Shown in pieces: positions 15,423 to 38,262 of a DNA stretch of 53,560 nucleotides; within the stretch, counting starts at the first letter, position 1; the number at the start of each line of letters is the position of its first letter. The notes beneath the pieces are model-generated. The model worked only from the letters and a program-made list of their open reading frames with translations, was not told where the DNA came from and did not search any database. The stretch covers positions 1 through 53,560 of the forward strand of contig JAFZSR010000060.1 of assembly GCA_017619275.1 (NCBI GenBank). Direction: 5' to 3'. The stretch is from Prevotella sp. Lineage in GTDB: Bacteria > Bacteroidota > Bacteroidia > Bacteroidales > Bacteroidaceae. Both the position numbers and the translations under genes were made by a program.

Positions 15423-17885
15423 TTACAGGTCTTTTTCTATATATGTGAACATAGTGTTGCCTATGATGAAGGAGTCGCCGTGGTAAAGCCATCGTTTTTT
15501 GCCAACGGCAATGGGCTTGCCTGAGAAGAGAACACCATCCTCGATGGCTAAAATGAAGGGGTTACTGCGCTTCATGCGAATCTCGGCATGCACAGGGGCG
15601 ACATGCCCCCTGAGATCCCACGAGAGTTGCAGGCTGCAGTCCACGCTCTTGCCTATTGTGACCACACGATCGGGAGCGTTGCGGAACCACTTATAGATGG
15701 CAATGTCCATCTCTTTGACATCTCCTTGAACCTTCAGGAAGAAACGGTCGGAGCGTGGCGACACTGATGCTATACTGACAGCGAGACCTACGGCGTAGAC
15801 CATGAAGCTGATGAGCAACAGCACGCGATAGTCGACATCGGAATCAAAGAACAGCCACCAGACATACATGGAGATGATGCCAATGGCAATGCCTGGCAAG
15901 ATGAGTGATTTGCGAAGCACCACACGCGTGCCATGTGTGCCACAATAGGCAATGATGAATCCAGAGAGCGTCCAGGGAATCCACTCCAGAAGTATTTCGA
16001 CCAGTTCGTTCCTGACAACGGCGATGACAATGCTGGCCACCAAGAAAACAAGATAGCAGGAAACGGCGGCTATGACGGCCCTTAACAATACACCACCGAA
16101 ATGGTGCAGCACTTCGGATAAGCGAACTGACAGAACAGCAATGCCTAACGTTAGGAAAAATCCAATGGCAAAGCCAAAAGCTGAAAGTGGTGAGATACTA
16201 TCCTGATATAACAAGGCTGCTGCCTCTTTACTACCCTCCTGCACTCCATAGAGTAGATGTAACATTTTGGTAACCAGAAAATGAGTAATGGTATGCTCCC
16301 GGGTAATGAATACCAGCCACGCCAACCAAGCTGCCACGATGGCCATGATGATCCATTTCATATAGTAAGGGGCATTGTGGCGGTCAAGCAGGTTATGAGG
16401 GTTGTAGTAGTGCACCCCCTCTTTGCAGCGGTCGCTGTATTCTGGACAGTGATACTGATTCTCGTCCCAACAGGTCTTATGCATAGTGTGACTACATTTT
16501 ACTACAATCTCATCGCCTGTTTCGAAGGGTTGTTTGCAGAGATAACACGACTCGTGCACTGCTGTCATGCCGAAACCCATGCGGCTCCCTGTATAGCGCA
16601 CCACGTATTTGTGAAGAAAAAGACGATAGCGGATGAAGGGGATGAGCAGCTGGAACAATAACCAAACGATGAGCAGGATGAAAATTGCTAAGAGAATGCT
16701 TTGAGCAATGACAAGGGATATTTTGTGCCCATGTACAATGATTGGATTGAAGATGTTGCCTTCTTGAATGGATGCCGAAAACGAAGTGATGAGACTGTCG
16801 GTCTTGGAGTCGGAGAACAGTACGGTAAGTGTCTCAATATTGCCGCGGTAAACCTTACCGTCGGGATTCTCAAAGGTAAACTCATTGGCATCTGGACTGA
16901 CGTTGAAGGTATTCAAGACATTGTTCTTGAAGGTTGTTCCACTGTAATGTGGCATAAAGATGCCATGTGTGTGTTGGCAGAATTCACGGATCACGATAGA
17001 CTCTTGGCTTTCACCAGCTTCATTCAGAGGCCTCATGCTGGCGTAAGAACACAGGAAATCGGGTATCGCGTTAGGTTCTTGATGTACCATTTGTTCCTGA
17101 AACAGATAATGGTCGGGATCGAGCGGCATATCCGTCTCGTCGTCATACACCCGCTCGTCAGAAAAAATAAGCAAGACCTTCTTCTTGGCATCTGCCCACG
17201 GCTCTTCATTGCTGTTCATCTCATCCTGTTTCTGCAAGATGGAACGATAGAGGCAGATGAACTGATCGTTTGGGGAATTGGCTGTTTGGTCGTTTGGCCG
17301 TTTGGGGTGTTGGTCATTTGGGGTGAGATACAAATCCTTTTTGAAATAGTTTTCAAGGATATAGTCTGTCACCTCCATCGACTCGCTGACAGTATAACCC
17401 TGCATGAAAGCAATATACAGATTGTGATGGTTGAACACGGCTCGCAACTCGGTAACGTAGTCACGAAGCCGGTCGAGCGACGATTGTGGCAGGGTGGCAT
17501 CGACTAGTGTCAACAACTTGATACCAGCCTTGCTGATGTTGTCGCCCTTGAGATTGCGCCCTGCAATGAGCCGGGGCAATGAATGAGCATGCTTCTTGAT
17601 GCCGTCAACAGTTTCGGTTACACTGACGCGTACACGGCTCGAGTCCATCAGTGAATATGGACCGATATCATCGTACATTCGGGTGGTGACTACGAAGGTT
17701 TTGTAATCAGGAGAGAATTCCACTTTATGTACTTGCATCGCTTCTTTGTGCTGTGGTTTCAACTCATCGATGAAATCTTCCATTTCATCAACATCCACAA
17801 ACTGTTCCACCAAATGGTCGCAACCCGACAAGCCCAGCATCAGTACGATGCAAGACAGATAATAGATATAAAATGTACGTCTCAT
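15423..17885 (-). CDS. Membrane lipoprotein with VWA-like, RING-H2 and FHA-like domains; candidate E3 ligase and T6SS membrane component
   Basis: 820 aa from the ATG at 17885 (a GTG at 17900 is less likely). Order: lipobox 'LGLSGC' with C22; a VWA-like domain (about 115-310, 'LLTLVDATLPQS', 'VLLIFSDERVYD'); a membrane helix (about 390-420); a RING-H2 signature C447-x2-C450-x13-C464-x-H466-x2-H469-x2-C472-x7-C480-x6-C487, including the typical 'F.xGDEIVxKCxHxxHxxC...CP'; about five more membrane helices (507-707); and a C-terminal FHA-like fold (about 740-820, 'VTIGKSVDCSLQL', 'PVHAEI', 'YHGDSFIIG'). The last Cys pair is spaced x6 instead of the usual x2. The membrane helices would put RING and FHA in the cytoplasm. 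With Ubl, E2 and E1 in the same operon, an E3 role is the natural inference. The VWA part may correspond to TssR of Bacteroidetes T6SS, which I could not confirm. Confidence 0.8.
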   Translation of the reverse strand: MRRTFYIYYLSCIVLMLGLSGCDHLVEQFVDVDEMEDFIDELKPQHKEAMQVHKVEFSPDYKTFVVTTRMYDDIGPYSLMDSSRVRVSVTETVDGIKKHAHSLPRLIAGRNLKGDNISKAGIKLLTLVDATLPQSSLDRLRDYVTELRAVFNHHNLYIAFMQGYTVSESMEVTDYILENYFKKDLYLTPNDQHPKRPNDQTANSPNDQFICLYRSILQKQDEMNSNEEPWADAKKKVLLIFSDERVYDDETDMPLDPDHYLFQEQMVHQEPNAIPDFLCSYASMRPLNEAGESQESIVIREFCQHTHGIFMPHYSGTTFKNNVLNTFNVSPDANEFTFENPDGKVYRGNIETLTVLFSDSKTDSLITSFSASIQEGNIFNPIIVHGHKISLVIAQSILLAIFILLIVWLLFQLLIPFIRYRLFLHKYVVRYTGSRMGFGMTAVHESCYLCKQPFETGDEIVVKCSHTMHKTCWDENQYHCPEYSDRCKEGVHYYNPHNLLDRHNAPYYMKWIIMAIVAAWLAWLVFITREHTITHFLVTKMLHLLYGVQEGSKEAAALLYQDSISPLSAFGFAIGFFLTLGIAVLSVRLSEVLHHFGGVLLRAVIAAVSCYLVFLVASIVIAVVRNELVEILLEWIPWTLSGFIIAYCGTHGTRVVLRKSLILPGIAIGIISMYVWWLFFDSDVDYRVLLLISFMVYAVGLAVSIASVSPRSDRFFLKVQGDVKEMDIAIYKWFRNAPDRVVTIGKSVDCSLQLSWDLRGHVAPVHAEIRMKRSNPFILAIEDGVLFSGKPIAVGKKRWLYHGDSFIIGNTMFTYIEKDL

Positions 17886-17910
17886 TATTTCGTTATTCAC
17901 TTTTCAATTC

Positions 17911-18792
17911 CTAAATTGTGGGATAATCGTCTGCGCCTGCTCCTTGTCGCCGAATCAAATCCTGATAGTTTTTCATTTGCTTGCGGACAGCTTTCAAAGC
18001 CTTGTATTTTGATACTACCATGTTGGCAACCAATAGCAATATTGCCACACATGCAATACCAATCAGATAGTCCTTAATGCGATGGAACAATGATTGATAA
18101 GCAGATTGCTGTATTTTCTTCGACATCACCTGAACAATGGAATATTGCTCGGTGAGTGCTTCCATACGCTTTGACAGCATGGGTAACACCTCTACAGCTT
18201 GCTGAGCCTTGCCGTAGTTCTCTTGTATCTGCGTGAAGAGTGTTTGCTCCTGGGCCTTGACCTTCTCCAGATAAGGCTCCGTCTTTTTTAACAACGATAG
18301 CTTATAAGCTTTTTTATAAAGTTTTTTATATACGCTGTCCTTTCCTTGTATCAGCTGTTCAGCCTTGACAAAATTGGCAAGTGCGTCGCATTTCTGCTTT
18401 TTCGACGTAATGGAATCGGCCGCCACCAATTTTGCCTGAAGCACATTGGCCATTAGATTCATCAAATCCTCATTATCGGAAATGTCTACCTGCATGGCCT
18501 GTACAAAGGTGTTCCAACGTAAATCTATCGCCTGAAAACGTTCGTCAAGCCTTTTTGCCTTATCGCTGAGTATCTGGGCATACTCCATAGTGAGTGGTAT
18601 GGCGTCAGAGAATCTCAACTGCATATCGCCGAAAGTAGCTAGTTGGGTAAAGTCGTCTACATACTCTAACATACGGAACTCAATATCCTCAGCCAGCAAA
18701 TCTGTCTCATTTCCTATTTCAGGAAGCTGAGCCAGCGCTGTCATGGGGAATAGCAAGAAGCCCCAAAGTAGTATGTGTTTTATTATCTGCAT
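17911..18792 (-). CDS. Exported coiled-coil protein with C-terminal membrane anchor (T6SS operon)
   Basis: I do not recognise a family. The 293-aa protein has a cleavable signal peptide (1-21, ending 'MTALAQ'), a mostly alpha-helical, Lys/Glu-rich periplasmic body with heptad character (about 100-235), one membrane helix (about 241-261) and a basic cytoplasmic tail of about 30 residues. Its start overlaps the end of the preceding gene by 10 nt, a sign of translational coupling. The RING/FHA gene follows 25 nt after its stop. Exported helical protein, tail in the cytoplasm and T6SS neighbours together suggest a periplasm-spanning part of the membrane complex, replacing TssJLM or TssN-Q. Confidence 0.75.
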   Translation of the reverse strand: MQIIKHILLWGFLLFPMTALAQLPEIGNETDLLAEDIEFRMLEYVDDFTQLATFGDMQLRFSDAIPLTMEYAQILSDKAKRLDERFQAIDLRWNTFVQAMQVDISDNEDLMNLMANVLQAKLVAADSITSKKQKCDALANFVKAEQLIQGKDSVYKKLYKKAYKLSLLKKTEPYLEKVKAQEQTLFTQIQENYGKAQQAVEVLPMLSKRMEALTEQYSIVQVMSKKIQQSAYQSLFHRIKDYLIGIACVAILLLVANMVVSKYKALKAVRKQMKNYQDLIRRQGAGADDYPTI

Positions 18793-19949
18793 GTCCTGTT
18801 GAAGTATTTTTCAGCCTGACGGAAAATGTTAACAGCCTTGCGCTCTTCCGCAGAGGAATTTCCACTGCTCCTAATAATGATACCCGTATCTTGAATGATG
18901 CTGCGACACTGGCTGACCAAATCGGATCGCTCCACGTCATCGCTACTGCTAATCCATTGCGATACCATACGGTCTATTTGGCGGGCATTAGCCAAAATCA
19001 TCTTAGCATTCTTTGCGTGGTCTTTAGCATCGAAGGCCCCAGAAACCACCGTCTCGTCCATTCCCTGTTTGACGTGCATAGTGGCCAGAGAGTCTGCAAT
19101 TTGGTTATATTGTCGGCGCAGCTCCTGAATGTCTGGGCAGGGACTCTTATCGTTGTTATGTGGGAATTGTGCCACCAGTGTAGCCTGCAGTTCTTGAAAC
19201 GCATGGAGTGCCTCTGCAGAGCTGACCACTCTCTTGAGATATCTTTTCTTCAGTGTCGCATAACTCTTGCTGACAGCCGCAAGCGACTTTTGAGCAGTAC
19301 CCATTTCCTCGTCAAGACCGAAGCATGGATTACGTTGTATGGTTACCTGGTATTCCAAATCAAGGTCTTTGCCATAGCTTATTTCGTAGTAGGTGGCGAG
19401 GCCCTTGCGGCGGTTGATGTCGAGAAACATCAGGTCGCGCAGCCTCACAGTGACATGGTTGCGACGGTTCTGTATGTCGAAGGTCTGCTCAATGTAGTCG
19501 TTTACCATCTTCAGCTCCTGCTTCCTGGGCTGCAGACCCTCATATTCTATCCATTTCTTGAAGACATGCTTTTTGAGGGGTCTGGGCAGCGACTGACGAT
19601 ATGTCTTACTCAGCTTGAAACAATCGTCGGGATTGGCGGTGACAACGTATGGCAGCCGATCATAATGTATCTTTCGGTGGCAACCTATAGTGCCCTTATA
19701 AGGGGTGTCGTCCCAGAACACGAAGAGTGTCCTAAAGGAAATAATGCTCACGGTAAGCGTGTTATCCTGTTCGTTAAAGCGGAACTTCACCATGAGGTCC
19801 TTATCGGTAGCATCAGTGGCCAAGGCGACATGGTCGGTATAGGATGTGTCGGCCGACAAGGTGACCGGCCTGACAGTCCTGGCCTGCGACACAACGGCTG
19901 TCAGCCAGCACAACACCAGCAGTAATGCCCGGTATTTCTTTCTCAACAT
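18783..19949 (-). CDS. Exported protein of unknown family (T6SS operon)
   Basis: 388 aa from the ATG at 19949 (an in-frame ATG at 19961 adds only 'MKSE'). A signal peptide (1-23, 'LLLVLCWLTAVVSQA') precedes a beta-rich domain (about 30-185) and an alpha-helical, Cys-poor C-terminal half (about 195-388) with coiled-coil character. No enzyme motif is visible. It lies 55 nt after the E2-like gene and overlaps the next gene by 10 nt. With the next two proteins it makes up a block of three exported or membrane proteins at the end of the operon, so a role in the envelope-spanning base of the T6SS is likely but unproven. Confidence 0.72.
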   Translation of the reverse strand: MLRKKYRALLLVLCWLTAVVSQARTVRPVTLSADTSYTDHVALATDATDKDLMVKFRFNEQDNTLTVSIISFRTLFVFWDDTPYKGTIGCHRKIHYDRLPYVVTANPDDCFKLSKTYRQSLPRPLKKHVFKKWIEYEGLQPRKQELKMVNDYIEQTFDIQNRRNHVTVRLRDLMFLDINRRKGLATYYEISYGKDLDLEYQVTIQRNPCFGLDEEMGTAQKSLAAVSKSYATLKKRYLKRVVSSAEALHAFQELQATLVAQFPHNNDKSPCPDIQELRRQYNQIADSLATMHVKQGMDETVVSGAFDAKDHAKNAKMILANARQIDRMVSQWISSSDDVERSDLVSQCRSIIQDTGIIIRSSGNSSAEERKAVNIFRQAEKYFNRTCR

Positions 19950-20004
19950 TTCACTCTTCATTATTCAATTGTCACTTGGGACTACTTGCTAATATTTATT
20001 CTTT

Positions 20005-20607
20005 TCATTCTTCATTTTTCACATAAAAAGGTATCCATCCTTGCGGCTCGCCCTGTTTTCGAACCCATGCCGCCACCTGCAAGTCCTCTGGATAGGGAGG
20101 TTCGAGTGTTGCGTGCCACGTGTCGTAACGCAGATAGGAAGCGACTCTTCGCACAGCCCACAACAAGCTGGTGTAGGTATCAGTCATATTGATGCACACC
20201 CTGCCGGCGAAGTTGCCAAAATAACAGATGTTGGGGTGCCAGGGATGGGGTATGGGCAATCCTTGTTGGTCGGTGATGAGAAAATGAAACGCAGGTGGCG
20301 CGTCCACCTGGGGGTAGTTCGGGGGCAGCTCAACCATCATCTGGAAATGTGTGGCAAAGCAAGGCTCGTTGGTGATTCCAGGCTCGTCGAGATGCTCCAC
20401 ATTGGTTACACCGCAGATACTACGCAGGTGATAGTCTATGAGATAGGCTGTCGGCAGGCCATCAACGTTTGTCTTCACCACAGAACAACCAATGTCGGAA
20501 CGCCCGTTGAGGCCTTGTTCCAACAGCTGCCACTCAGCTAGTAACCGGCGGTTGCGCCCGCTGAGGCGGCGGAAATCGAACTCATCACTCTTCACTTCTT
20601 CAATCAT
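20005..20607 (-). CDS. E2 ubiquitin-conjugating-enzyme-like protein
   Basis: A 200-aa protein with the UBC-fold landmarks in order: a beta-strand 'HFQMMVELPPNYPQVDAPP' (about 87-105, the E2 'YPxxPP' wing), the HPN tripeptide H124-P125-N126, and the candidate catalytic C138 in 'GRVCINM', 12 residues after the Asn as expected for E2s. A Trp and helix follow ('SLLWAVRRVASYLRYD'). In the known pathway the E2 takes a ubiquitin-like protein from E1 on this Cys and passes it to a lysine, often with a RING E3. It sits 24 nt downstream of the ubiquitin-like gene and shares the operon with an E1-like and a RING protein. The conserved HPN and Cys suggest an active enzyme, unlike RWD/UEV-type dead homologues. 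Confidence 0.85.
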   Translation of the reverse strand: MIEEVKSDEFDFRRLSGRNRRLLAEWQLLEQGLNGRSDIGCSVVKTNVDGLPTAYLIDYHLRSICGVTNVEHLDEPGITNEPCFATHFQMMVELPPNYPQVDAPPAFHFLITDQQGLPIPHPWHPNICYFGNFAGRVCINMTDTYTSLLWAVRRVASYLRYDTWHATLEPPYPEDLQVAAWVRKQGEPQGWIPFYVKNEE

Positions 20608-20631: not shown

Positions 20632-20955
20632 TTACCCTGGGAACGGGTCGGGTACTAGATACACGGTGTCACCATTTCCAACATGATAGTCGGCCAGTGT
20701 CTGGTCAGTATGGCCAATGCGGGGCCGCAATACGCGAATCTCATGCACTTCGGGATCTTCCTTTCCGAAGAAATAGTCGATGGGCGCTCCAGTCTGGTCG
20801 ATGGATGGGAAGTCAAAGATCAGTTTGCCGTCGCTGCCAATGGCATGACGCAGGTTGGTAATCAGCGTGCTCAGCGGGGCATTGGGATTGACAACCCTGA
20901 ATTTGACTGTCTTGTTCTTGTAGACGATGTTTAACAGGAAATCATTTTCTTCCAT
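20632..20955 (-). CDS. Ubiquitin-like (beta-grasp) protein ending in Gly
   Basis: A 107-aa protein that reads as a beta-grasp domain: two N-terminal strands ('FLLNIVYKNKTVKFRVVN'), a helix ('LSTLITNLRHAIG'), then the ubiquitin-type C-terminal pattern 'QTLADYHVGNGDTVYLV', equivalent to 'xTLxDYNIxxxSTLHLV' of ubiquitin. It ends directly after Gly107 ('PFPG') with no extension, so the tail would be ready for E1 activation without a processing protease. A single terminal Gly, not GG, is unusual but known in bacterial ubiquitin-like proteins. Its ATG is 1 nt from the tssF stop codon and the E2 follows 24 nt later, so production is probably coupled to TssF. YukD-like non-conjugated function is the alternative. 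Confidence 0.8.
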   Translation of the reverse strand: MEENDFLLNIVYKNKTVKFRVVNPNAPLSTLITNLRHAIGSDGKLIFDFPSIDQTGAPIDYFFGKEDPEVHEIRVLRPRIGHTDQTLADYHVGNGDTVYLVPDPFPG

Positions 20956-20956
20956 A

Positions 20957-22672
20957 TCATTGTTTCTTTTCTTCTATTTGTATGTTCACATAGATGGGAT
21001 AGACACCCGTGCTCCTCACCTCCATCATCTTCTGCAGCAACATCTCGGCCTGGGCTATCTTGTCGGTGAAGCTGCGTCGAATGAAGTTGCTGTCCTGCAG
21101 GCAGATGTCGACATAGATGCCATAGCCGCAGTCGCTGCGGTCCTGTTGCTGCTGCACGGTGATGCTGCTCACCATGGCGTTACTGATAGAGTATCGGCTC
21201 ATCAATGTCGTATAGCAGAACAGCTTGATGTCGGCTGGCGTGACGATGCGGTCGTTGGACGTCATGAAATAGCTCAGCATAGCAGGTATGGCTTCGGCAT
21301 TGCTGACCTCGTTAAATCCTCCTGCGGGCTTGGCTATTTGCTTTGTGGCGGCAGCATCGAATCCTGGTGGCGGCACAAAACTGCTGTCGGCCTTCAGGCT
21401 TTCATTGACAAGGCTGCCCTCGGTGGTGAGGTAGTCGATGTCGAGGCTGAAGGTGGCATCGCTGCCGAATGCCGTCGGCTGGATGACAAGATAGACGCCG
21501 CCGATGTTGCGCCACGGCTCTTGACTGGCCGCTCGCGACAGCTTTGCCAGTGCCTCTTGCAGGTCGCGGGCCATCGCCGACAGGTTGTTGTCCTTCAGGT
21601 GGAGGAAGGCATAGTAGTCGCTGCTGAACTTTGTGACCAGGCTGTTCACCAGGCGTGTCAGCGCCCCTTGGTTGAAACGGTCGGCGGCCACACGCCTTAC
21701 CTCCACCGGAGTCTTTCCAAATAGCTGCTCCTGAGCGGGAGGGATGAGATGCATCAGCTGCGGACCTTGGCCCTCCTTGGCGTCATTGTCGCTGCCACCA
21801 GCCACCCTTACCAGCGGCGTGGTAGCACTCAGCGAGGCAGTGTTCAGCTGGGCGTTGACCAGCAGTATGGCGTTCAGCGAGAAGTGACTCTTGTCGAACA
21901 CGAAGTCGTCGGAAATGCCAGTGAAGTCGAACTCCAGCTCCACCAGCTCCGACTCCATGGGCATCAGTGGCTTGCTGGTGCTCTTCGCCACACAAAACAG
22001 TGCCACGTTCTGGCGGGCGTAGAGGTCGAGACCTGTCATGGCTGCCTGATACATCTGACGGCGGTTGTAGAGGAGGGTTGTGAGCGAGAAACAGCGCTGC
22101 AGCGGCATGTCGGCATAGTCCCATGGTTTGACCAGCGGGAGCAGCATGCCGTTCATGGTCACCTTGACATCCCTGAAACGTGAGTCCCTGATGGCGAAGG
22201 TCATGCCCGTGAGGTCGCTGACAGGGTCGCGAAAGAGCAGCGTGAGCTTCCACCGGCGACCATCAAGCCTAATGATGGAGCGCACGGTGGCGTTGAAGAC
22301 ACGCGACTGGAGCAGCGGCATGAAAAGATGGTTGCTGTCTTTCAAGGCAAAAATGCTCTTCTCGTTGAGCACGGCCTCAGCTACGGTGTCCTGCAAGGCT
22401 GCCTCCACCACGGCGGTAGCAGGGATGGCATGGCCCACCTCGTAGGGTACAAGCAGGCGCGCAAATTCATCGAGCACGTCCTGCCGCAGCCGCTCTATCT
22501 CGCTGTCGGTCTCGTTGGCCTGCCAGGCCAGGGCCGTTATCAGCAGCGAGAACACAGGGTCGTGCTCCAGCCCTTCCAGCTGGTCGCTGTGGTCGCCCTG
22601 GCGCCAGATGCTGATGGTCTCGCTGAGCAGTTCTTCTGCCCGTTGGCGGGTGTTGTATGCTTCTTGTTTCAT
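20957..22672 (-). CDS. tssF: T6SS baseplate protein TssF
   Basis: 571 aa. The N-terminal region 'HDPVFSLLITALAWQANETDSEIERLRQDVLDEFARLLVPYEVGHAIPA' (about 36-85) matches the TssF/VasA opening, where helices precede 'LL.P......P'. TssF forms the baseplate wedge with TssG and TssE around the VgrG spike. The tssK-tssE order just upstream supports the call. It ends with TGA 1 nt before the ubiquitin-like gene, an unusually tight coupling for genes of different systems. Length is close to the usual 580-600 residues. Confidence 0.85.
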   Translation of the reverse strand: MKQEAYNTRQRAEELLSETISIWRQGDHSDQLEGLEHDPVFSLLITALAWQANETDSEIERLRQDVLDEFARLLVPYEVGHAIPATAVVEAALQDTVAEAVLNEKSIFALKDSNHLFMPLLQSRVFNATVRSIIRLDGRRWKLTLLFRDPVSDLTGMTFAIRDSRFRDVKVTMNGMLLPLVKPWDYADMPLQRCFSLTTLLYNRRQMYQAAMTGLDLYARQNVALFCVAKSTSKPLMPMESELVELEFDFTGISDDFVFDKSHFSLNAILLVNAQLNTASLSATTPLVRVAGGSDNDAKEGQGPQLMHLIPPAQEQLFGKTPVEVRRVAADRFNQGALTRLVNSLVTKFSSDYYAFLHLKDNNLSAMARDLQEALAKLSRAASQEPWRNIGGVYLVIQPTAFGSDATFSLDIDYLTTEGSLVNESLKADSSFVPPPGFDAAATKQIAKPAGGFNEVSNAEAIPAMLSYFMTSNDRIVTPADIKLFCYTTLMSRYSISNAMVSSITVQQQQDRSDCGYGIYVDICLQDSNFIRRSFTDKIAQAEMLLQKMMEVRSTGVYPIYVNIQIEEKKQ

Positions 22673-27070: not shown

Positions 27071-27103
27071 ACACTCAACTATCAACTATTCACTATCAAC
27101 TAT

Positions 27104-29416: not shown

Positions 29417-32400
29417 TTAGAAATTTCTTAATACGTCTTTTAACTCCTGCACGTAGTCGGAGTTAGTGGTGCGTGTCAGCACACCGTTCACAATGTTGAT
29501 GGTTTCGTTCTTGCCCTTGTCAGACATCAGGATCTCGCCTTGCTTGCACGTGTCCCAAAGTCTGGGTTCGTAGCCCCAGTCGCGATAGAGGCCAATCATC
29601 TGCTCCACGAACTTTTTGTTGCTGTCTTTAAGGGCGCCGCTCTTTGGCTCGCCAAGCAGATCGACATAGCGTTTCCATTTCTCAGAATACAGATATTGGG
29701 CAAGGTATTCAAAAATTTCTATTGGTTTACTAGGTTCGGGCAGCTGCTTCACCAAGCCTGTTTTCTCTATCAGTCGCTTGGCCAGCATACGCTTCAGCCG
29801 CCGCCCGTTGAAAGCCTTGTTAATATAGTTGGTAGGGTCTTGATTGAATGTCTCGGTTTTATTCACAATCTTGATGATGAAGTCAGGCCACTCATTTTCT
29901 TTCATGCTGCTAACTACTTCTCTTAACTTAGACATGAAATACATGTCTTCTTGAGAAAAGAGTGGCCCGATTTTGACTACATTGAAGGCGTAATCATATA
30001 TCTCTCGGATACACTTCTTCAGTGAGTTGACATTAGTACACAAAACATCGGCGTCTGCTTGGGTAATGGCATATCCGTTCGCAAATTTCAGTTCTTTGAA
30101 GTCTCCAGACTGGTCGAACAGTATACTGATGAGCTTGGTGTGGTCTGGAGTCGTCATGTTATTTATATGAGCATTCGAGTTCAAAGCGAGCAATTTCGTC
30201 CTCACGTCCTCGTATTTGGTATAGAGGGTGTCGAACCATGTGTTTGTCATGGTGTCGATAAACCTGAGGGTGTTCAGCAGTGTGGACCCCTTGTCTTCCT
30301 TCATCGATTTAGACATTCCTTTCACACTGTACCCCTTGCTGGGTATCTCCACCTTACCGCCTCCGGCAGTGAGCAGCAGGTAGCGCCCCGACTGTATGGT
30401 CATGGTGCCTGCCACGGGCTTCAGCAGGGCTTCCCACACCGTGCGCAGCAGGCTCAGGTCGGTGAGGGGCGACAAGAAGCTGGCAGTGGCACTGGCGCCG
30501 AGGGCTTTGAGGTATTCCTTTCCATAGGTTTTCATGGAGAATTTTTTCTCGTCGATGAACTTGCCGGAAACAATTCTCACCTCGTTGCCAGCCTCTATGC
30601 TGACGTTCTTTCCCTTGATGCTGATGTCGCCATTGGGTGCTGAGATGGTGATGCCCGAGAAGGCGCTGATGTTCACGTTACCGAAGGGTGACTTGATATC
30701 TATCTTCCGCTCAGTAGACGATGCCTCAATCTTGTACATGCCCCACTTGTCGGTGAGGGTGATGCCGCCAGAGAGACTATCGTTACCCTTGAATTCGCAA
30801 TCAACATCGGCCAACTTATGAAATTTGCTCACCAGCCCGAAGGCAGGGAGCACGCCCGCCACGAAATTGTAGGAGTCGCCGCCGTCGTTGAACGACAGGG
30901 TGTGTCCCTTCGACGAGACGATGCTGCGATTGCCTTTCGGTGCCTCGCAGCGCCTGGTGTAGAGTGAGCCCACGACATAGGGGTGCTCCATGTTGCCGTT
31001 CTCATAGTCTACCAGCACCTCGTCGCCCGGGGAAGGCTCGAAGTTGAAGCCGCTGGCACCGCTCGGCGCATTGTTAGGAGCGAAGGGCACCACCATGCGT
31101 ATCCACGGCGACGGCGTCTCGCTTTCTTTTTGCCAGGGATAGCGTATGCACACGCGCCTGAAGCCCTCAGGGTCACCGGCAGAGGCGATGAAGGCCCGCT
31201 GCGGTCCCGACTTCCTCACGAAGGGTACGACGGCAGGCGGGCAGAAGAATTTCATGGTTTCCTCTTTCTTGTTTTTAATCACCTTTGCCGAAAACTGCTT
31301 GGTGAGTACTATCTGCTGACCCAGTGCCAAGGCAGCGGTACCGGCGGCATCGTCGGCCTCAGCCTTCAGTACCTCCTGCACCTCGGTCACAATACAGTTA
31401 GCACCGTCGAAGAAGAACTGACTGCCCAGGCTGAAGGCCTCCCACTCCGGCCCTAACGTGACCTCTGTCTGCTCCACGCTGTGGCTGCACTTGGCTATGA
31501 ACTGGTAGAACTTGGCATCCAGGTTCTGCTGGAAGTCGTAGTTCTCGGCTTTTACCGACTTGCTCAGCATGGAGCCGTAGAGGGTGGCCGTCTCGGTCGA
31601 CGAGTCGTACTGTTCTTCGGCGTTCTTGTGGATATCCTTCTTGGAATAGTTGTAATAGTCCTTGGAAGAACTGTCTGCAGGCTCCTCGCCGTAATGGGTC
31701 ACCACCCACTTCTCGTTGCCTTTCTTGTTCTTGAAGGCAAAGGCGTCACCTGTCCACACAATGGCCTCGGCATACTTCTCGGTGAGCTTGGCCAGCATCT
31801 GTGCTATGCTGGTCTGGTTCATAATGTTGTTGAGGGCTTCAATAAGGATGAACCAGTAGTCCTTGAACAGCATCTTCCCATAGTCGGCAAACTGGTCTTT
31901 CTGGAAGAGCATGCCCAGATACTCGTCGACGGGCAGCTCGTCGTAGCTGAAATAGGTGCCGCTGTCGCTGGCATAGATGGACGGCTCGGGGGCGTCGTCA
32001 TCCCGAGGCTCCATGGTGTTCACATAGACATCGGCAACACTGGCGTTTTTATCCGTCACTAAGGAATCCAAGGCTTTTTTATAGCGGTAGGACAGTATAC
32101 CCGTTGTATGGAGGACAGTGGTCGAGTTGACGGGGGGAAGCCCCAGATAGAGGTTGCCATTCTCATAGAAGAAGAATTCACCACAACGGTTGGCGGTGCG
32201 GGCAATGAGGTCGTAGAAGCTTTCGTTGTACTGCACGAGATAAGGCTGAATGAACTCTTTCGCCGTGTCTGAGCTGTAGTAATTGAGCGTGTGGAGCGTG
32301 AACTTCACCGTGGAGGTGGTGAACCCGGCCTTTTTCAGTATTCCGTCAATGGTCGTTTTGCCATCTATTGTCTTATTGTCCAGCGCTGTAAACAGAATAT

Positions 32401-32896
32401 CGCCACAGAGTTTCTTGTTGACATAGGTTTTGCAGTAGCGGTCAAGGGTGAGTTTATGGTCGGGGCTGTAGATGTAAAGTGTCAAGTCGGCATACTGCTC
32501 GCTGCCGTCGCGCTTGTATTCTGGCTCCACCTGATAGGTGTAATAGTCTTTGGCAATAGAATGGGTGGTGGTGCTCAAGGTTTGATTGAGAATGCCACCC
32601 TTCTTTTCCACGGTTTGTGTGAGCGAGACCTTCTTGTTGCCCATGAAGAAAGCAACCAGCTTGTCCTTAGAGGTAAAGAAGATATTGAAGAGATCGTTAG
32701 ACTTGTCCCTCACCTGCACCTTGGCCACCACGAGTCCGGGCTGGAACATCTTCTTATGATAGCGCAACGACAACAGCGAGAGCGAGCATTTCTTGCCGCC
32801 GATGGTAACTTCCGCGCCTTTGCTGCAGGTCATCGAGTCGCTTCCTATTGTCAAAGTATATGTATAGGTATATGTATATGTTTCTTCGTAGGCCAT
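29417..32896 (-). CDS. tssI: T6SS spike protein VgrG with long C-terminal helical extension
   Basis: 1159 aa. The N-terminal half is gp27-like; the gp5-type OB domain (about 560-650) is clear in 'ASAGDPEGFRRVCIRYPWQ', 'PSPWIRMVVPF', 'FEPSPGDEVLVDYENGNMEHPYVVGSLY'. A short beta-helix follows (about 730-870, 'FGNVNISAFSGITISAPNGDISIKGKNVSI'). The last 280 residues are mostly helical and end in 'GEILMSDKGKNETINIVNG...YVQELKDVLRNF'. VgrG trimers form the puncturing spike. The extension could be an effector ('evolved VgrG') or a docking domain for the beta-helix protein made 12 nt downstream. No catalytic motif is recognised in it. The 'YTYTYTYTL' start is an odd simple repeat. Confidence 0.9.
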   Translation of the reverse strand: MAYEETYTYTYTYTLTIGSDSMTCSKGAEVTIGGKKCSLSLLSLRYHKKMFQPGLVVAKVQVRDKSNDLFNIFFTSKDKLVAFFMGNKKVSLTQTVEKKGGILNQTLSTTTHSIAKDYYTYQVEPEYKRDGSEQYADLTLYIYSPDHKLTLDRYCKTYVNKKLCGDILFTALDNKTIDGKTTIDGILKKAGFTTSTVKFTLHTLNYYSSDTAKEFIQPYLVQYNESFYDLIARTANRCGEFFFYENGNLYLGLPPVNSTTVLHTTGILSYRYKKALDSLVTDKNASVADVYVNTMEPRDDDAPEPSIYASDSGTYFSYDELPVDEYLGMLFQKDQFADYGKMLFKDYWFILIEALNNIMNQTSIAQMLAKLTEKYAEAIVWTGDAFAFKNKKGNEKWVVTHYGEEPADSSSKDYYNYSKKDIHKNAEEQYDSSTETATLYGSMLSKSVKAENYDFQQNLDAKFYQFIAKCSHSVEQTEVTLGPEWEAFSLGSQFFFDGANCIVTEVQEVLKAEADDAAGTAALALGQQIVLTKQFSAKVIKNKKEETMKFFCPPAVVPFVRKSGPQRAFIASAGDPEGFRRVCIRYPWQKESETPSPWIRMVVPFAPNNAPSGASGFNFEPSPGDEVLVDYENGNMEHPYVVGSLYTRRCEAPKGNRSIVSSKGHTLSFNDGGDSYNFVAGVLPAFGLVSKFHKLADVDCEFKGNDSLSGGITLTDKWGMYKIEASSTERKIDIKSPFGNVNISAFSGITISAPNGDISIKGKNVSIEAGNEVRIVSGKFIDEKKFSMKTYGKEYLKALGASATASFLSPLTDLSLLRTVWEALLKPVAGTMTIQSGRYLLLTAGGGKVEIPSKGYSVKGMSKSMKEDKGSTLLNTLRFIDTMTNTWFDTLYTKYEDVRTKLLALNSNAHINNMTTPDHTKLISILFDQSGDFKELKFANGYAITQADADVLCTNVNSLKKCIREIYDYAFNVVKIGPLFSQEDMYFMSKLREVVSSMKENEWPDFIIKIVNKTETFNQDPTNYINKAFNGRRLKRMLAKRLIEKTGLVKQLPEPSKPIEIFEYLAQYLYSEKWKRYVDLLGEPKSGALKDSNKKFVEQMIGLYRDWGYEPRLWDTCKQGEILMSDKGKNETINIVNGVLTRTTNSDYVQELKDVLRNF

Positions 32897-32921: not shown

Positions 32922-34238
32922 TTATTTCCGTTTCATTTTGATGTGCAGGTCGCTGAGCTCATTGCCTTTCATTCGCACCGTCTTCTCTATCGGGCGGTAG
33001 CCTTCCTTCTCTACTCTTACGGTGCAGGGCGTATGGGCTGGCAGCGATGGAATGATACAAGGCGTGTGGCCCATCATCAGTCCATTGACGAATATGCTGG
33101 CTCCAACCACGTTGCCATGAATGTTGAGCATGGCCATGCTGGCCTGAGGGGTGGCGAGGCTGGCCTCCACAGGCACCCCGTCGGAAACCCAAAGGTCGAT
33201 GGCCTTCGACTCGCTGTTTCCCTTGCGCGTGGAGACCTGGTGATAGCCTTGTGTCAGGGTGCCGCTCCACTGTCCGGTACCCATCTGCTCGCGGTCTATC
33301 CATATCTCGGTGTCGGCATCGGGGGCGTTCAAGACAACTGGGGTGAGCGGCAGTGCCTGCTGGTCTCGTGAAACCGTCATGGTGTCGGCTGTTATGGCGA
33401 GCGGCTGTCTGTGGGTCGACAGCAGCCTGAGGTCTTTGTTCAGTATCTCGGCCACCGCTTTTTCGGCTGGCTTTACTGTGATGGTGCGGTCGTAGTAGCA
33501 GTTGCCCGCAAACCAGGCACTGAGACGGTGGCTGCCAGGCGCGAGGCGCATGCTGACAGCTTCCAACTGCCCGATGGGCTGGCCATCGACATGTATGCTG
33601 AACCACGGCCGCTCGCTCTTCACGGTGAGATAGGAGTAGAAGGGCTGTAGCCTAAGGCTGAGGCTCAACTTCGCCGTGTCGGTGAGCATAAGCGTGTCGG
33701 CCACGGTTTCATAGAATGGTGCTTCTACCTGCCAGGCATGTTTGCCAAGGGGCAGGCACTTCGTCAGCTGTCCGTCGCGCACGGGGCAGACGGTGGAGTC
33801 GATGGTGACGACGGCATCCTTGGGTTCTATCTGGAACACCACCCACTGCTGTTGCAGTTTGTACTCCTTGTTGGGGTTCGTACAGTTGAGCGTAAGGCTG
33901 TAGTGCTTCTTGCGCTTGAGCCACTTCACGGGCACCCGGTAGGTGTAACGCCCATAGTCGGGGTGGGTAATGGTGATGTGGCGCGTGTGGTGAGGCAGCT
34001 TCACGGTGATGATGCCTTCGCCCTCTTCGGCCTCGGCGGGTTCTTTGCCATTGGCCAGAAACGCGAAGCCCTTCTCGTCGGTCTTCAGGTCGAGCAGCGC
34101 CTGCTGCTTGTCAACGGCCACCCGGGAACGGTTCCAGAGGTAACGGCGCACATGGGTGAATTGCTCCACTCCCATCTGCTGCGCCCCAACAGGAGCCATG
34201 CAGCATACCATCAGCAACACTACTGCCCACTGCCTCAT
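32922..34238 (-). CDS. Exported PEGA-domain protein (T6SS operon)
   Basis: 438 aa with a signal peptide (1-18, 'MVCCMAPVGA') and several PEGA-like beta-sandwich segments. The clearest is C-terminal: 'GNVVGASIFVNGLMMGHTPCIIPSLPAHTPCTVRVEKEGYRPIEKTVRM'. Others are near 'SIHVDGQPIGQLEAVSMRLAPGSHRLSAWF' (about 215-245) and 330-355. PEGA domains bind surfaces or peptidoglycan-linked proteins but are not enzymes. It sits between the last hcp-like gene and vgrG, an unusual place for a periplasmic protein, so it may be a cell-wall or outer-membrane collar of the apparatus, or an accessory of the host envelope. Confidence 0.8.
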   Translation of the reverse strand: MRQWAVVLLMVCCMAPVGAQQMGVEQFTHVRRYLWNRSRVAVDKQQALLDLKTDEKGFAFLANGKEPAEAEEGEGIITVKLPHHTRHITITHPDYGRYTYRVPVKWLKRKKHYSLTLNCTNPNKEYKLQQQWVVFQIEPKDAVVTIDSTVCPVRDGQLTKCLPLGKHAWQVEAPFYETVADTLMLTDTAKLSLSLRLQPFYSYLTVKSERPWFSIHVDGQPIGQLEAVSMRLAPGSHRLSAWFAGNCYYDRTITVKPAEKAVAEILNKDLRLLSTHRQPLAITADTMTVSRDQQALPLTPVVLNAPDADTEIWIDREQMGTGQWSGTLTQGYHQVSTRKGNSESKAIDLWVSDGVPVEASLATPQASMAMLNIHGNVVGASIFVNGLMMGHTPCIIPSLPAHTPCTVRVEKEGYRPIEKTVRMKGNELSDLHIKMKRK

Positions 34239-34284: not shown

Positions 34285-34764
34285 TTAGCTGTCCCCACTG
34301 ATGCCAAGCACCAGCTCACTGCCGTCTCTGTGCACGTAGGTTAACTGGCGCGCCAGAATCTTCACAAAGAGCAGGGCTTGCTGCCTGTCGTTGGATGCCT
34401 TTTCCTCTACATCGACCACGTAGCCGTCGACGGTAATGGCATTGTCGTAGTATTTCATGCATCCGTGGTCGAAGACTCCGTTGAAGACAAAGCTATAGTG
34501 GCTGGAGGCCTGGTCTTCCAGTTTCTCGTAGAAGAGTTTCTCGTCGGCTCTCATCACGCGGATGCTGAAGTCCACGACCACGCTCTCTGTCTGTCCGAAC
34601 ACTGTCCGCACCTCGTCGCGCTTCATGGAGCAGGTGTAGGCAAACTGCTGCACGGTGCTCCCCTTCTGTTGGGAGAAGCGGTCTTGCAGCACGGCATCGT
34701 GCATGCCCTGCCTGGCCATCTCTGCCAGATTGCCTTCGAAGACCATTACCTTGATCTCTTTCAT
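34285..34764 (-). CDS. Divergent TssD/Hcp-like protein
   Basis: 159 aa from the ATG at 34764; a GTG at 34788 would add eight acidic residues. The pattern 'FAYTCSMKRDEVRTVFGQTESVVVDFSIRVMRADEKLFYEKL' recalls the 'Y.l.R..D..G.......I.v.v......l...' layout of Bacteroidetes TssD, followed by strands 'YYDNAITVDGYVVDVEEK'. Similarity is weak. It follows the third Hcp-like gene closely. It could be a tube-capping or cargo-specific Hcp variant, or a tail-tube initiator that meets VgrG. Confidence 0.55.
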   Translation of the reverse strand: MKEIKVMVFEGNLAEMARQGMHDAVLQDRFSQQKGSTVQQFAYTCSMKRDEVRTVFGQTESVVVDFSIRVMRADEKLFYEKLEDQASSHYSFVFNGVFDHGCMKYYDNAITVDGYVVDVEEKASNDRQQALLFVKILARQLTYVHRDGSELVLGISGDS

Positions 34765-34791
34765 GTCGTTGTCATCGTCTTTGTTCACTGA

Positions 34792-35190
34792 CTAAAGGTG
34801 CTCGAACGCCATGCCGTCGATGGACACATGCTCGGGAACGATGGCCATCTTCAGCAGTCTGCGGCTTTGGGCGTCAATGTCGTAACTTTCACTAAAGGCA
34901 AAGCAGCGGGCATCGGTGAAGTCGATGGTGCGTCTCTCCGAATTGCTGTGGTTGAGCGATACCGGCAGCTCATAGCTGAGACGGCCTGACATCAGGCTGC
35001 GGTTGATAAACCATTCGTAGATGGTATAGTCATCGGTCTCAGGGGCTACTACAGTGATCTCTATCCGCTCGCACGACGGTTTCGATTCGGGAATGAACTG
35101 GTTGTAGCGACGCGCATAGTGGCACCGGAAGTCGGCCACCTTGTATTCTGCCGGTGCGTCCTTGATTTGCAGCGTTGTCAGTAGTGCCAT
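34792..35190 (-). CDS. TssD/Hcp-like tube protein 3
   Basis: 132 aa, the usual TssD length. 'VADFRCHYARRYNQFIPESKPSCERIEITVVAPETDDYTIYEWFINRSLMSGRLSYEL' keeps the TssD order of strands and the central 'lh.W.......sG.i.y' helix-turn, but differs strongly from the two upstream paralogues. Hcp hexamer rings stack into the inner tube. Because the divergence covers the whole protein, this may be a specialised ring, for example one that carries effector or contacts VgrG. Confidence 0.65.
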   Translation of the reverse strand: MALLTTLQIKDAPAEYKVADFRCHYARRYNQFIPESKPSCERIEITVVAPETDDYTIYEWFINRSLMSGRLSYELPVSLNHSNSERRTIDFTDARCFAFSESYDIDAQSRRLLKMAIVPEHVSIDGMAFEHL

Positions 35191-35305: not shown

Positions 35306-35704
35306 CTACTTCCAGGGATTGTCATAGGCCACGGGGCCGTTCTCGAGCTTCTGGCAGGAAATTAAAATCTCCTCAAAGTGCTCTTGTCCGTCCTCCCACT
35401 TTTCCTTGTAGTGGACGCAGTAGCAGCTTGTGCCTTTCAGTTCCTTCATGGTAGCGCCATCTATGGTGTTGTAGAAGGTCACCTTGACGTCACGGGGATC
35501 ATTGGGTGACAGCATCCAACCCAGCAACTGATTGTTGCCGTCGTTCATGGCCTTGACGCGGATGGTCACCCTACCGCCACGGGGAATGCCAGCAATCTGG
35601 CCTTCACGGTCGGTGGCCTGGTCAAACTTGTAGTCAATCATCATCACCTCGCGTGGTTCGAAATCCGCAATTTCGAGGGTTACCGGTGTTACGTTTACTG
35701 CCAT
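35306..35704 (-). CDS. T6SS tube protein TssD/Hcp, copy 2
   Basis: 132 aa, a clear Bacteroidetes-type TssD. It shares with copy 1 the layout 'REVMMIDYKFDQATDREGQIAGIPRGG', 'VRVKAMND....LLGWM', 'MKEL', 'EKWEDGQEHFEEILISCQKLENGPVAYDNPW'. Many side chains differ, so it is an old duplication. Hcp rings form the tube expelled by sheath contraction. Two main types may build mixed tubes or load different cargo. Confidence 0.85.
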   Translation of the reverse strand: MAVNVTPVTLEIADFEPREVMMIDYKFDQATDREGQIAGIPRGGRVTIRVKAMNDGNNQLLGWMLSPNDPRDVKVTFYNTIDGATMKELKGTSCYCVHYKEKWEDGQEHFEEILISCQKLENGPVAYDNPWK

Positions 35705-35762: not shown

Positions 35763-36155
35763 TTATGCCCAGTCGTTCTCATATTTCACGCTTCCGAATT
35801 CAATCTGCTGGCAGCTGATGGTAATCTCCTCGAAGTGGCCAAGCTTGTCCTCCCATTTCTCCTCAAAGTTCACGCAGTAGCCTTTGGTGAACTTAATTTC
35901 CTTCATGGACTTGCCGGTCTTGGTCTCAAGGAACTCAATTGAGCCGTTCTTAGGCAGGTTGCGCTCCACCATCCATGCCAACAGTTCGGGGGTTCCGTCG
36001 TTCAAAGCTTTCACGCGGACTTGAATCATGCCGCCACGGGGTATGCCGGCCATCTGTCCTTCCACGTCAGTTTCCTGATCGAATTCATAGGTTACCATAA
36101 GGACTTCCCGGTCCTTATAACCTTCAATTTTCATTGTCACGGGTGTCTTTGCCAT
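35763..36155 (-). CDS. tssD: T6SS tube protein TssD/Hcp, copy 1
   Basis: 130 aa with the standard TssD pattern: 'REVLMVTYEFDQETDVEGQMAGIPRGGMIQVRVKALNDGTPELLAWMVE', then 'MKEIKFTKGYCVNFEEKW' and the typical ending 'ISCQQIEFGSVKYENDWA'. It follows tssC by 87 nt, the usual place for the main tube gene, so it is probably the structural Hcp. A gap of about 60 nt separates it from copy 2. Confidence 0.9.
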   Translation of the reverse strand: MAKTPVTMKIEGYKDREVLMVTYEFDQETDVEGQMAGIPRGGMIQVRVKALNDGTPELLAWMVERNLPKNGSIEFLETKTGKSMKEIKFTKGYCVNFEEKWEDKLGHFEEITISCQQIEFGSVKYENDWA

Positions 36156-36242: not shown

Positions 36243-37607
36243 TTATGCACTTGCTAATGCTGCTTCTTTGTCCTTCTTGTCGGCAGCCACCTTGATGATA
36301 AAGTTCTTGGCGGCATAGAATGGAGTAAGCGTAACGTTGCAGGTAATCTGTTTGGTGACGGGATCCTGGCGAGGCTCGCCAATTTCGTAGTTCTGAAACA
36401 GGTTACCGTAGCCCTTGTACATGTTGAGGAACTGCTGGATCTTCGCCTTTAGGTTCTTTGGGCTGTTGTAGGGATCCCAATTCTCCAGGGCCACCTCGTG
36501 AACGAAGTTCATGAGCACCTTCTTTACCCAGTCGAAGACGCGTACAATGGGGTACTCCTTCATGGCGTCGAGGTCGCCGTTGTAGAGGGTAGTGTTGTTG
36601 AAGGCCATCACGCGGCCCTCGCTGTAGACCATCGGCACCACCTGATTGTCCATCAGGGAGGCTATCTCCGACTTCAGCAGGTCGCTCTTCACTCCCTTCA
36701 CACCGTCGAGTGTGCCGTACTTCTTGCCGCCAGCGCCCTGGGCCATGTTGGCCGTTTCGTTGTAAAGCTTTCCACAAAGGGCTGCCGAGGGGGCAATGTA
36801 AAAGGCCTTGTTGTCTTCCTCGTCGGTCGACATCTTCTCTGCCTCGCGGCCCACAATCCAGTTGGCACACATCACCACGTTCATCAGCTCCTGGTCGCTG
36901 TCGCGATAGCCCTCGGTGTTAGCCTGCAGGTCATCGAATGAATACTCGTCGGCATGGTCAGTAAGTAGCATCACCTTGTACTTGAAGGCCATCTTGGCCC
37001 AGCGCAATAGGTCGGTCTTGTCGTTGAGTACGGCACCAGGTATGCAGACGAGGCTGTAGGCATCCTTGAGACTGAGACGGTCATAGCCGTTGCGCAAGAT
37101 GTCCTCCACCTCCTGTGAGAAGCCTGAGTCAGCATCGGCGATGTCTTCTTTGAGTACGTTGATGATGCGGAGATTCTTCACCTTGTCGGTGCCGCAAGTC
37201 TTGAAGAAGGAGTCGAGTTCACGGTAGCTGCGCTCGAGGTTCTGCGTGGCATAAAGGGCGTCGGTGATGCCCTGCTTAAGTACCTCGGTATATTTCTCTT
37301 CAGCTTCCTTGCAGGAGTCGGCAAACGCGGTGGCCTTGTCCAGGTCGGGCTGGTCGAGAAGCTCAAGCCAACGGCTGATTTCACGTTTCAGGTTCTCACG
37401 CTTGTCCTTGAATCGCTTGTCGTTGAGGAAGATGTCCTTAGCCGCTTTGCGGGTGGGATTCATGTTGTCGGCATCGGGCATGAAGCCGCGAATGGCGTTG
37501 AAGCCTCCAAACTGCGACAACAACTTGCTGGGCTCTTTAGGCCTTTCCTGTAACCCGGCAGCTGCATCCTGTGCTACCGAGTTTTTTTTCATTTCACTGT
37601 CTGCCAT
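36243..37607 (-). CDS. tssC: T6SS sheath large subunit TssC
   Basis: 454 aa, close to the family's usual length. Recognisable regions include 'LRIINVLKEDI' (about 144-154), the central handshake region 'YDRLSLKDAYSLVCIPGAVLNDKTDLLRWA' (about 179-208), and the C-terminal strand pair near 'DPVTKQITCNVTLTPFYAAKNFIIKVAAD'. TssC and TssB form the contractile sheath around the Hcp tube. In ClpV-dependent systems the TssC N-terminus is the unfoldase target; here that segment is Lys/Pro-rich, and no ClpV gene is present in the operon. Confidence 0.92.
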   Translation of the reverse strand: MADSEMKKNSVAQDAAAGLQERPKEPSKLLSQFGGFNAIRGFMPDADNMNPTRKAAKDIFLNDKRFKDKRENLKREISRWLELLDQPDLDKATAFADSCKEAEEKYTEVLKQGITDALYATQNLERSYRELDSFFKTCGTDKVKNLRIINVLKEDIADADSGFSQEVEDILRNGYDRLSLKDAYSLVCIPGAVLNDKTDLLRWAKMAFKYKVMLLTDHADEYSFDDLQANTEGYRDSDQELMNVVMCANWIVGREAEKMSTDEEDNKAFYIAPSAALCGKLYNETANMAQGAGGKKYGTLDGVKGVKSDLLKSEIASLMDNQVVPMVYSEGRVMAFNNTTLYNGDLDAMKEYPIVRVFDWVKKVLMNFVHEVALENWDPYNSPKNLKAKIQQFLNMYKGYGNLFQNYEIGEPRQDPVTKQITCNVTLTPFYAAKNFIIKVAADKKDKEAALASA

Positions 37608-37661: not shown

Positions 37662-38129
37662 TTAATCCTCAGCTGCTTCTAGTTCGCTGAGCATGGAGCG
37701 TAGCATGTCTTTCAGCTCATTGCGGCTACTGGCCTCCTTCAGAATGTCGCGCAGCTTGCGGTTCTGTTCAATGCTCTTTCGAATTTTTGTGTTTGTCTCA
37801 ATCTTCATCTTCACACCAGAGAGGAACGGGCTATTCTCCACCAGACGGCCCTTGCCACCGTTAGTCTCGAAGTCGCGGATTTCGCCAAATGATAGTGTCT
37901 CCTCCACGGCACCGCCTTCCTCGTCGGTAAAGGTAACGTCCACTTTCGGCTTGAAGCGAGCGAAAGCCTCGTCGATGTTGTGGACATCCTCCACAAACTC
38001 TGGATTGCCGGCCTCCACGTCGGAGGTGTACTGGTCGATCATAAGCGTTTTGTTCTGGTCAATCAGACTGACTTTCGCACTGCTCTCCTCATCAGGAGCC
38101 ATCGAAATAAAATTCTCTTTCATTGACAT
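37662..38129 (-). CDS. tssB: T6SS sheath small subunit TssB
   Basis: 155 aa. 'EAFARFKPKVDVTFTDEEGGAVEETLSFGEIRDFE' (about 53-88) is the conserved TssB core, followed by the C-terminal helical region that clasps TssC ('IRKSIEQNRKLRDILKEASSRNELKDML'). It is the first gene of the 22.7-kb operon, 97 nt downstream of the predicted promoter region, and precedes tssC by 54 nt. Confidence 0.92.
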   Translation of the reverse strand: MSMKENFISMAPDEESSAKVSLIDQNKTLMIDQYTSDVEAGNPEFVEDVHNIDEAFARFKPKVDVTFTDEEGGAVEETLSFGEIRDFETNGGKGRLVENSPFLSGVKMKIETNTKIRKSIEQNRKLRDILKEASSRNELKDMLRSMLSELEAAED

Positions 38130-38232
38130 AGTCGTAGCGTTTTAATAGATTAATAATAATGTGTTATTTCGTCGTTTAGTTATTTTCGTGATTCCGTCAC
38201 TTCAAATTCATCTGCAATGATGATAACGTTTG

Positions 38233-38262
38233 CAAAGATAGAAAAAAAATGGAAAAACACAA
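38233..38262 (-). promoter_or_regulatory. Promoter of the T6SS operon
   Basis: On the minus strand TTG (38262-38260) is followed after 19 bp by TATCTTTG (38240-38233), an excellent fit to the Bacteroidetes TTG-n19-TAnnTTTG promoter. Transcription would start near 38226, leaving a leader of about 95 nt before tssB. No equally good promoter was seen within the operon, so one long transcript is plausible. Confidence 0.8.

Follow-up and report, generated by a model that had tools for sequence, protein, structure and literature searches.

In bacteria, conjugation of ubiquitin-like proteins (Ubl) is known mainly from antiphage systems, among them Bil and Bub, and Bil acts by tagging foreign tail-like proteins. 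The locus described here lies in a stretch of 53,560 nucleotides (nt) of Prevotella sp. DNA (GCA_017619275.1, contig JAFZSR010000060.1), hereafter called the window, and combines genes of a type VI secretion system (T6SS) with those of a Ubl conjugation cascade. It has a Ubl, an E1 and an E2 in common with the Bil and Bub operons, and a sister subtype of the locus also shares their JAB. However, it encodes a membrane RING protein, has no JAB in the window, and is T6SS-linked instead of forming a stand-alone cassette, T6SS core genes being present in all 80 related loci (the best 80 of at least 458 E1 relatives obtained by an E1-alignment scan of a species-genome collection, to which all counts out of 80 refer). 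Prokaryotic systems of membrane-associated RING, E1, E2 and YukD-like Ubl proteins were reportedly predicted by Burroughs in 2011, and a partial description of the module as such may therefore exist already. Its placement in a T6SS is the part for which no report was found among the matches listed from the PMC open-access literature.

Bacterial Ubl operons with E1, E2 and JAB (Iyer 2006, PMC1779556) and RING-E1-E2-Ubl-JAB conflict systems (eLife 2020 e52696, PMC7159879) have these respective components in common with the present loci; the available portions of the two papers describe no secretion machine, whereas here the T6SS genes are interleaved with those of the cascade. A Ubl as part of a secretion machine is found in the type VII secretion system (T7SS), whose EsaB/YukD and EccD have a fold close to that of the Ubl of the window, but which, in the text available of that source, lack a Gly-Gly and are described without a conjugation cascade (PMC11217815). 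Post-translational control of T6SS by Fha/PpkA phospho-regulation is covered by a 2023 review, the main text of which uses the word ubiquitin 0 times (PMC10482370, seen in part). An FHA-like protein end occurs in the present locus and a kinase in its sister locus, but here the control would be exerted by a Ubl cascade, and the phospho-reading residues are poorly kept.

The T6SSiii, as described for B. fragilis GA3 with the membrane proteins TssNQOPR, resembles the system of the window in its TssC and Hcp families, in TssE, TssF, TssG, TssK and VgrG and in a PAAR-like tip, and the TssC proteins of both fall into one tree. According to the accessible part of the 2024 survey of T6SSiii (PMC10781749), its membrane complex is the sole type in the phylum, TssN co-purifies TssK, TssK docks on TssN in the canonical system, and the cytosolic domain of TssN is ubiquitin-like. 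In contrast, genomes with the Ubl-containing T6SS have no TssN over the cut-off and carry the Ubl, E1, E2 and RING genes together with two conserved, unnamed genes, m1 and m2, instead.

Cascade genes within the T6SS operon

The minus strand of the window carries, from 38129 to 15423, one series of closely packed genes in the order TssB, TssC, three Hcp-like genes, an unnamed gene, a PEGA gene, a VgrG-like gene, a spike-associated gene, a DUF4280/PAAR-like gene, an RRF-like gene, E1, TssG, TssK, TssE, TssF, Ubl, E2, m1, m2 and RING. An earlier note, made from the sequence of the window, had proposed that T6SS core genes and four ubiquitin-type parts occupy a single minus-strand run, and the open reading frames (ORFs) were indeed found there, with support from Pfam, homology and profiles. 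The coordinates also bear out the proposed interleaving, in which E1 (25211..26347) lies between the spike and baseplate genes, and the Ubl (20632..20955) and E2 (20005..20607) lie between TssF and the membrane genes. From the RRF-like gene through the RING gene the intergenic gaps are 1-77 nt, with 1 base separating the TssF and Ubl genes and a single overlap of 10 nt between m1 and m2.

The baseplate genes enclosed by E1 and the Ubl encode TssG (24385..25179), TssK (23215..24351; TIGR03353 1.6e-7 and PF05936 1.4e-4, both below cut-off), TssE (gp25; 22750..23199; PF04965 5.7e-10) and TssF (20957..22672). TssF and TssG, and likewise TssB, were not matched by a Pfam family of that name and were named by homology to other loci and by position. 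The product of m1 (18783..19961) has a hydrophobic N-terminal stretch, and hydropathy of that of m2 (17911..18792) suggests a signal peptide, a helical part and a single C-terminal transmembrane segment (TM). The RING gene (15423..17900) closes the series.

At least one T6SS core gene was found in 80/80 related loci and at least three in 78/80. TssG was present in 79, TssK in 78, TssE in 75 and TssF in 74 (the profiles for these four contain window proteins and proteins of the sister locus, contig C81, paired by size and order, and TssF alone was checked separately), the Ubl in 72, E2 in 71, m1 and RING in 70 each and m2 in 65. The same ten genes are intact in 62 of the 80 loci, an arrangement which exceeds chance. 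At least one of the Ubl, E2 and RING genes is missing from 11 loci, and gene lengths and order suggest that these loci were cut by contig ends. One locus (L085) has the gene order of the sister subtype. In another (L013) the sheath and spike genes are on the opposite strand, yet the genes from E1 to RING remain with TssG-K-E-F. Pairwise divergence correlated with that of TssF across 62 loci (r = 0.87 for E1, 0.85 for E2 and 0.81 for the Ubl, shared descent being uncorrected). Retention with the baseplate genes of a Ubl-E1-E2-RING set that has intact catalytic features and is built into a T6SS operon is supported.

Named strains with the locus include Parabacteroides distasonis An863, Bacteroides mediterraneensis An793 and Xylanibacter ruminicola D31d. 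In a metagenome contig (L080) E1 is split over two ORFs, reflecting either a disrupted gene or a misassembly. A plasmid carrier was considered and rejected: 235 plasmid records matched E1, none of them across more than 80 % of its length, and the lowest E-value among the 15 plasmid matches listed belonged to a plasmid of a cyanobacterium that carries genes for ThiF, E2 and Mov34/MPN.

The sheath proteins are encoded by TssB (37662..38129) and TssC (36243..37607; PF17541 1.9e-100), followed by three Hcp/TssD genes at 35763..36155, 35306..35704 and 34792..35190 (PF17642 1.4e-29, 1.1e-23 and 1.7e-11, respectively). The unnamed protein amid the Hcp genes (34285..34788; 40/80 loci) is without a firm Pfam match. 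Downstream are the PEGA-domain protein (32922..34238; PF08308 1.1e-20), the VgrG/TssI-like spike (29417..32896; PF04717, base-V, 6.7e-12), the unnamed spike-associated protein (27515..29404; 49/80 loci) and the DUF4280 or PAAR-like tip (27104..27502; PF14107 2.2e-27). A protein resembling ribosome recycling factor (RRF; 26381..27085, minus strand; PF01765 1.2e-14) also sits inside the operon and is matched in 54/80 related loci.

Folds and catalytic features of the cascade proteins

The four ubiquitin-type parts named in the earlier note were recognized on different kinds of evidence, E2, Ubl and E1 by family profiles and structure models, which strengthened their identities, and RING by invariant ligands and weak matches. 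Both folds on which the earlier proposal had been made to depend, UBC and beta-grasp, are predicted in the structure models. That the locus contains a genuine Ubl-conjugation cascade is almost certain, and the cascade probably conjugates actively.

The Ubl matched Pfam families weakly (Rad60-SLD 0.02, YukD 0.085, ubiquitin 0.2), and its profile matches, carried mostly by the last strand, are inflated by ubiquitin-chain repeats. Its structure model has a predicted beta-grasp fold, and comparison of model folds by VIA-align placed EccD among the closest. The C-terminus of the window protein reads ...PDPFPG, and a C-terminal Gly is present in 72/72 related loci in which the gene was found (DPFPG in 59 and DPIPG in 13). 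As this Gly is already free, the Ubl would need no maturation. None of the lysines of the Ubl is conserved at 95 % or more among the related loci, so chains of fixed linkage are unlikely and single tags are favoured.

The E2, with a UQ_con match of 7.7e-4 that is below cut-off, has a predicted UBC fold with H124-P125-N126 and C138, and the motif HPN-x11-C is present in 71/71 related loci with the gene found. The spacing between HPN and Cys in classical E2s is 7, and it is thus exceeded by the 11 residues here. The E1 consists of a ThiF domain (PF00899 6e-51) and a C-terminal extension. When its profile was compared with the PDB the best match was UBA7 (7.8e-35), eukaryotic E1s (8e-35) fitting better than BubCD (1.7e-12). 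C180 and the residues C161, C164, C254 and H257 are invariant in 23/23 aligned rows; C180 is a candidate catalytic Cys, and the other four form a candidate zinc site.

The last gene had been described as encoding a RING-H2 membrane protein; the RING ligands and TMs agree with this, but the protein is larger than described, having also a VWA-like part and an FHA-like end. By eye and by hydropathy it consists of an N-terminal signal or lipobox, the VWA-like part (called by Pfam in relatives only), a TM at about residues 402-420, the RING, further TMs and the FHA-like end. The RING should be cytosolic, as hydropathy sets the TM at 402-420 between it and the VWA-like part. All eight zinc ligands, C452..C492, are invariant in 28/28 aligned rows, and the C3H2C3 pattern is present in 70/70 loci. 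The protein is a candidate E3, its Pfam matches (zf-RING_2 6.3e-4 and FHA 9.3e-4, both below cut-off) and its PDB matches being weak. Four loci (L020, L021, L079, L082) have no separate m2; the RING protein is 1066-1089 amino acids (aa) long in these, which points to a probable fusion with m2.

Distribution, sister subtype and related modules

The window genome (G000; 3.59 Mb, 85 % complete) contains a second T6SS. It lies on contig C81 and comprises genes for Ubl, E2, a JAB-like protein, RING, E1, TssG-K-E-F, a Ser/Thr kinase and ClpV. The JAB-like protein has a TM (by eye) and a HSHP...S..D motif, its Prok-JAB match being only 0.0045. Loci of this JAB type were also found in G033, G113, G122, G326 and G196, and those of G006 and G034 belong to the window type. 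All nine Ubls of T6SS loci that were compared terminate in Gly, so that deconjugation is a likelier function than maturation for the JAB of the sister subtype. The idea that m2 is a JAB protein minus its protease was discarded for lack of profile similarity. Matches to m1 among sister loci were not used, since its profile included a C81 protein and such matches are no evidence of homology. ClpV/TssH was not matched in the window and was found at C81 and in 15/80 related loci, many of them cut. The other ClpV matches in the window genome were at best 44 % identical, and the two T6SSs may share the ClpV of C81, at the 85 % completeness of the genome. The second T6SS also contains a 1228-aa protein with long Ala/Gln-rich repeats and an Hcp-like match (G000:C81 29718-33404, L003).

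Of 151 genomes of the family 6 matched the E2 profile, as did 6 of 393 genomes of the order (the samples overlap), and TssC of PF17541 was present in 18 of the 393. Among the six order genomes with E2, five carry TssC on the E2 contig, and the remaining one, G166, gave no match to TssC. In the phylum sample E2 was found, besides the window genome, in two genomes only, both of one genus. Conserved linkage with tssF/tssG, which the earlier note had suggested surveying, held for the close relatives: TssF at 300 bits or more was found at nine distinct loci (G000 twice, G006, G034, G033, G113, G122, G326 and G390), all in E2-positive genomes, although the TssF of G390 is on a different contig from E2 and has one internal stop. 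It did not extend to the more distant T6SSs of the phylum, since genomes with a weaker TssF (G013, G041, G080, G420 and others) have no E2, apart from G196 (E2 present, TssF 88 bits), and no Ubl, E1, E2 or RING was seen in the stretches read of the canonical loci G249, G395 and G477 or of the kinase-rich G013. The G013 T6SS (G013:C1, about 329-357 kb; L100, L101), itself without Ubl genes, encodes four kinase-like proteins and FHA-like proteins (FHA by eye).

TssN over the cut-off was found in 0/9 Ubl-T6SS genomes and in 7/10 canonical genomes, and none was found in G013. None of 20 window proteins matched TssN or TssO (PF17561, E up to 1), and for want of TssN the window T6SS was not classed as a canonical T6SSiii. 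Elsewhere in the window genome (G000:C119 20601-21080) a TssN match below the cut-off (22.3 bits, E 1.4e-4) lies within a 692-aa frame. In a TssC tree of 36 proteins, unrooted and with long branches for L104, L116 and G013, the 17 window-type rows formed one clade (100/99) and the 11 canonical rows another (100/100). The canonical clade had as its sister G196, which has both Ubl and JAB, whereas the C81 type was sister to G013, which lacks a Ubl. L104 (G390) was counted as JAB type in this tree, though its contig stops before any JAB. The cascade is therefore either ancient with losses or was acquired more than once.

The contrast that the earlier note had drawn with JAB-bearing stand-alone Bil and Bub systems stands for the window, which is T6SS-linked and without a JAB match, but it is weakened by the JAB of the sister subtype and by related modules outside T6SS. 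The locus of G166 (contig C685; L103, L117, L118) encodes E1, Ubl, E2, RING-VWA, SrfB (1e-213), SrfC/Virul_Fac (1.8e-139) and JAB; its Ubl has a short tail after AG, and a further protein bears two stretches that, by eye, resemble this Ubl. T6SS profiles gave nothing better than a VgrG match at 0.045 on this 43-kb contig. In two genomes of one genus, G601 and G695, an E1-Ubl-E2-JAB-RING module adjoins a PAAR gene, called in G601, and large genes that by eye are putative toxin genes. G601 also has an extracellular contractile injection system (eCIS; sheath 1.8e-10, tube 2e-28, spike 5.2e-19), about 20 kb from the module on the opposite strand, and no sheath or eCIS was recognized in the stretch read of G695. 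This single observation in G601 hints at a wider tie of the Ubl module to contractile injection systems. An nSTAND NTPase gene is found near the eCIS, PAAR, toxin-like genes and module of G601 (G601:C65, about 66-113 kb; L131, L132, L127, L128).

Proposed role of the cascade

That the cascade serves the T6SS is highly probable. The E1 would adenylate the free C-terminal Gly of the Ubl and hand the Ubl to Cys138 of E2. The RING, placed just beneath the inner membrane in a VWA-TM-RING-TM-FHA protein, would recruit the E2~Ubl to the place where the apparatus assembles and promote transfer of the Ubl onto proteins of the T6SS or of the membrane platform, and in the sister subtype the membrane JAB protease would remove the tag. 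Single Ubl tags may help to dock the baseplate at the envelope or to license it there, which is the job of TssN in canonical T6SSiii. Our confidence that tagging by the T6SS-embedded cascade licenses or anchors the baseplate in this way is evenly balanced, and the chance that the target belongs to either the apparatus or the membrane platform is likewise put at about even.

Several observations weigh against this proposal. The module is not specific to T6SS, because relatives of it are found in the neighbourhood of an eCIS and within a SrfB/SrfC locus that has no T6SS, and G013, of the same family, has a T6SS without the cascade. JAB was not matched among the window proteins by Pfam or profile search, the window type having m2. 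The lack of TssN is shared by the canonical genomes G417, G395 and G477, and 4/9 Ubl genomes in the TssN comparison are only 68-86 % complete. Descent of TssN from the RING protein or the Ubl was rejected, as there is no sequence similarity. The FHA-like end keeps phospho-threonine residues poorly, and gating by phospho-threonine was dropped because the Arg and His positions vary (the pattern fits 27/70 rows, with R and H together in 1/27). Neither TssK nor TssG has a lysine conserved at 95 %. Conserved lysines were found in TssE (K82), TssF (K483), VgrG (K763), m1 (K59), m2 (K179 and K240) and the RING protein (four), but none stands out or is tied to tagging, and one fixed target lysine was therefore not accepted; the small number and close similarity of the rows for TssC, TssB and Hcp preclude a judgement on their lysines.

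If cargo were tagged instead, the cascade would modify the spike, Hcp or effectors for loading, or the Ubl would be injected alongside the cargo. The proximity of E1, in loci of the window type, to the genes for spike and tip, the conserved K763 of VgrG and several conserved Hcp lysines (on few, close sequences) fit this idea, but it is unlikely, as the RING is membrane-bound and the block from E1 to RING stays with TssG-K-E-F, both where the sheath and spike genes are on the opposite strand and in the sister order. The T7SS Ubls, which have no terminal Gly-Gly (PMC11217815), and the presence of EccD among the closest folds would fit a structural Ubl. Like EsaB/EccD or the domain of TssN, it would mainly be a non-covalent adaptor, and the enzymes would act otherwise, e.g. 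as a conjugation-free thioester switch. Such a role is rather improbable, since the terminal Gly is present in 72/72 loci, the E2 and RING residues and those of E1 are intact in the rows aligned, and sister loci have a JAB.

An antiphage or anti-injection module that is housed in the T6SS locus and, in the manner of Bil, tags tail-like proteins of foreign origin would agree with the antiphage role of Bil and Bub and with partial matches of E1 to the PADLOC E1-E2 and BilD models. The window E2, Ubl and RING, however, match no PADLOC model (E up to 0.01), the genes form no island but are interleaved with T6SS genes, and their divergence tracks TssF, all of which makes defence quite improbable. 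In autophagy a Ubl is attached to a membrane lipid, and by analogy the Ubl could be put on a membrane lipid or envelope protein as a mark of the assembly site. The TM stretches in RING, m2 and the sister JAB protein (JAB by eye) would be compatible with this, but it is regarded as very improbable.

Beyond licensing of the baseplate by the cascade, it is tentatively suggested, and rather doubtful, that Ubl conjugation replaces the T6SSiii membrane complex in anchoring or licensing the baseplate, that membrane RING-Ubl modules are old partners of T6SS and eCIS in Bacteroidota, and that TssN may have in its ubiquitin-like domain a relic of such a module or a stand-in for it. If true, the system would be the first secretion machine with an inbuilt ubiquitin-type cascade, within the reach of the searches. 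A likely antibacterial weapon of gut and rumen Bacteroidales includes a complete Ubl cascade among its conserved genes, which suggests that some bacteria use ubiquitin-style tagging for building or controlling a secretion weapon.

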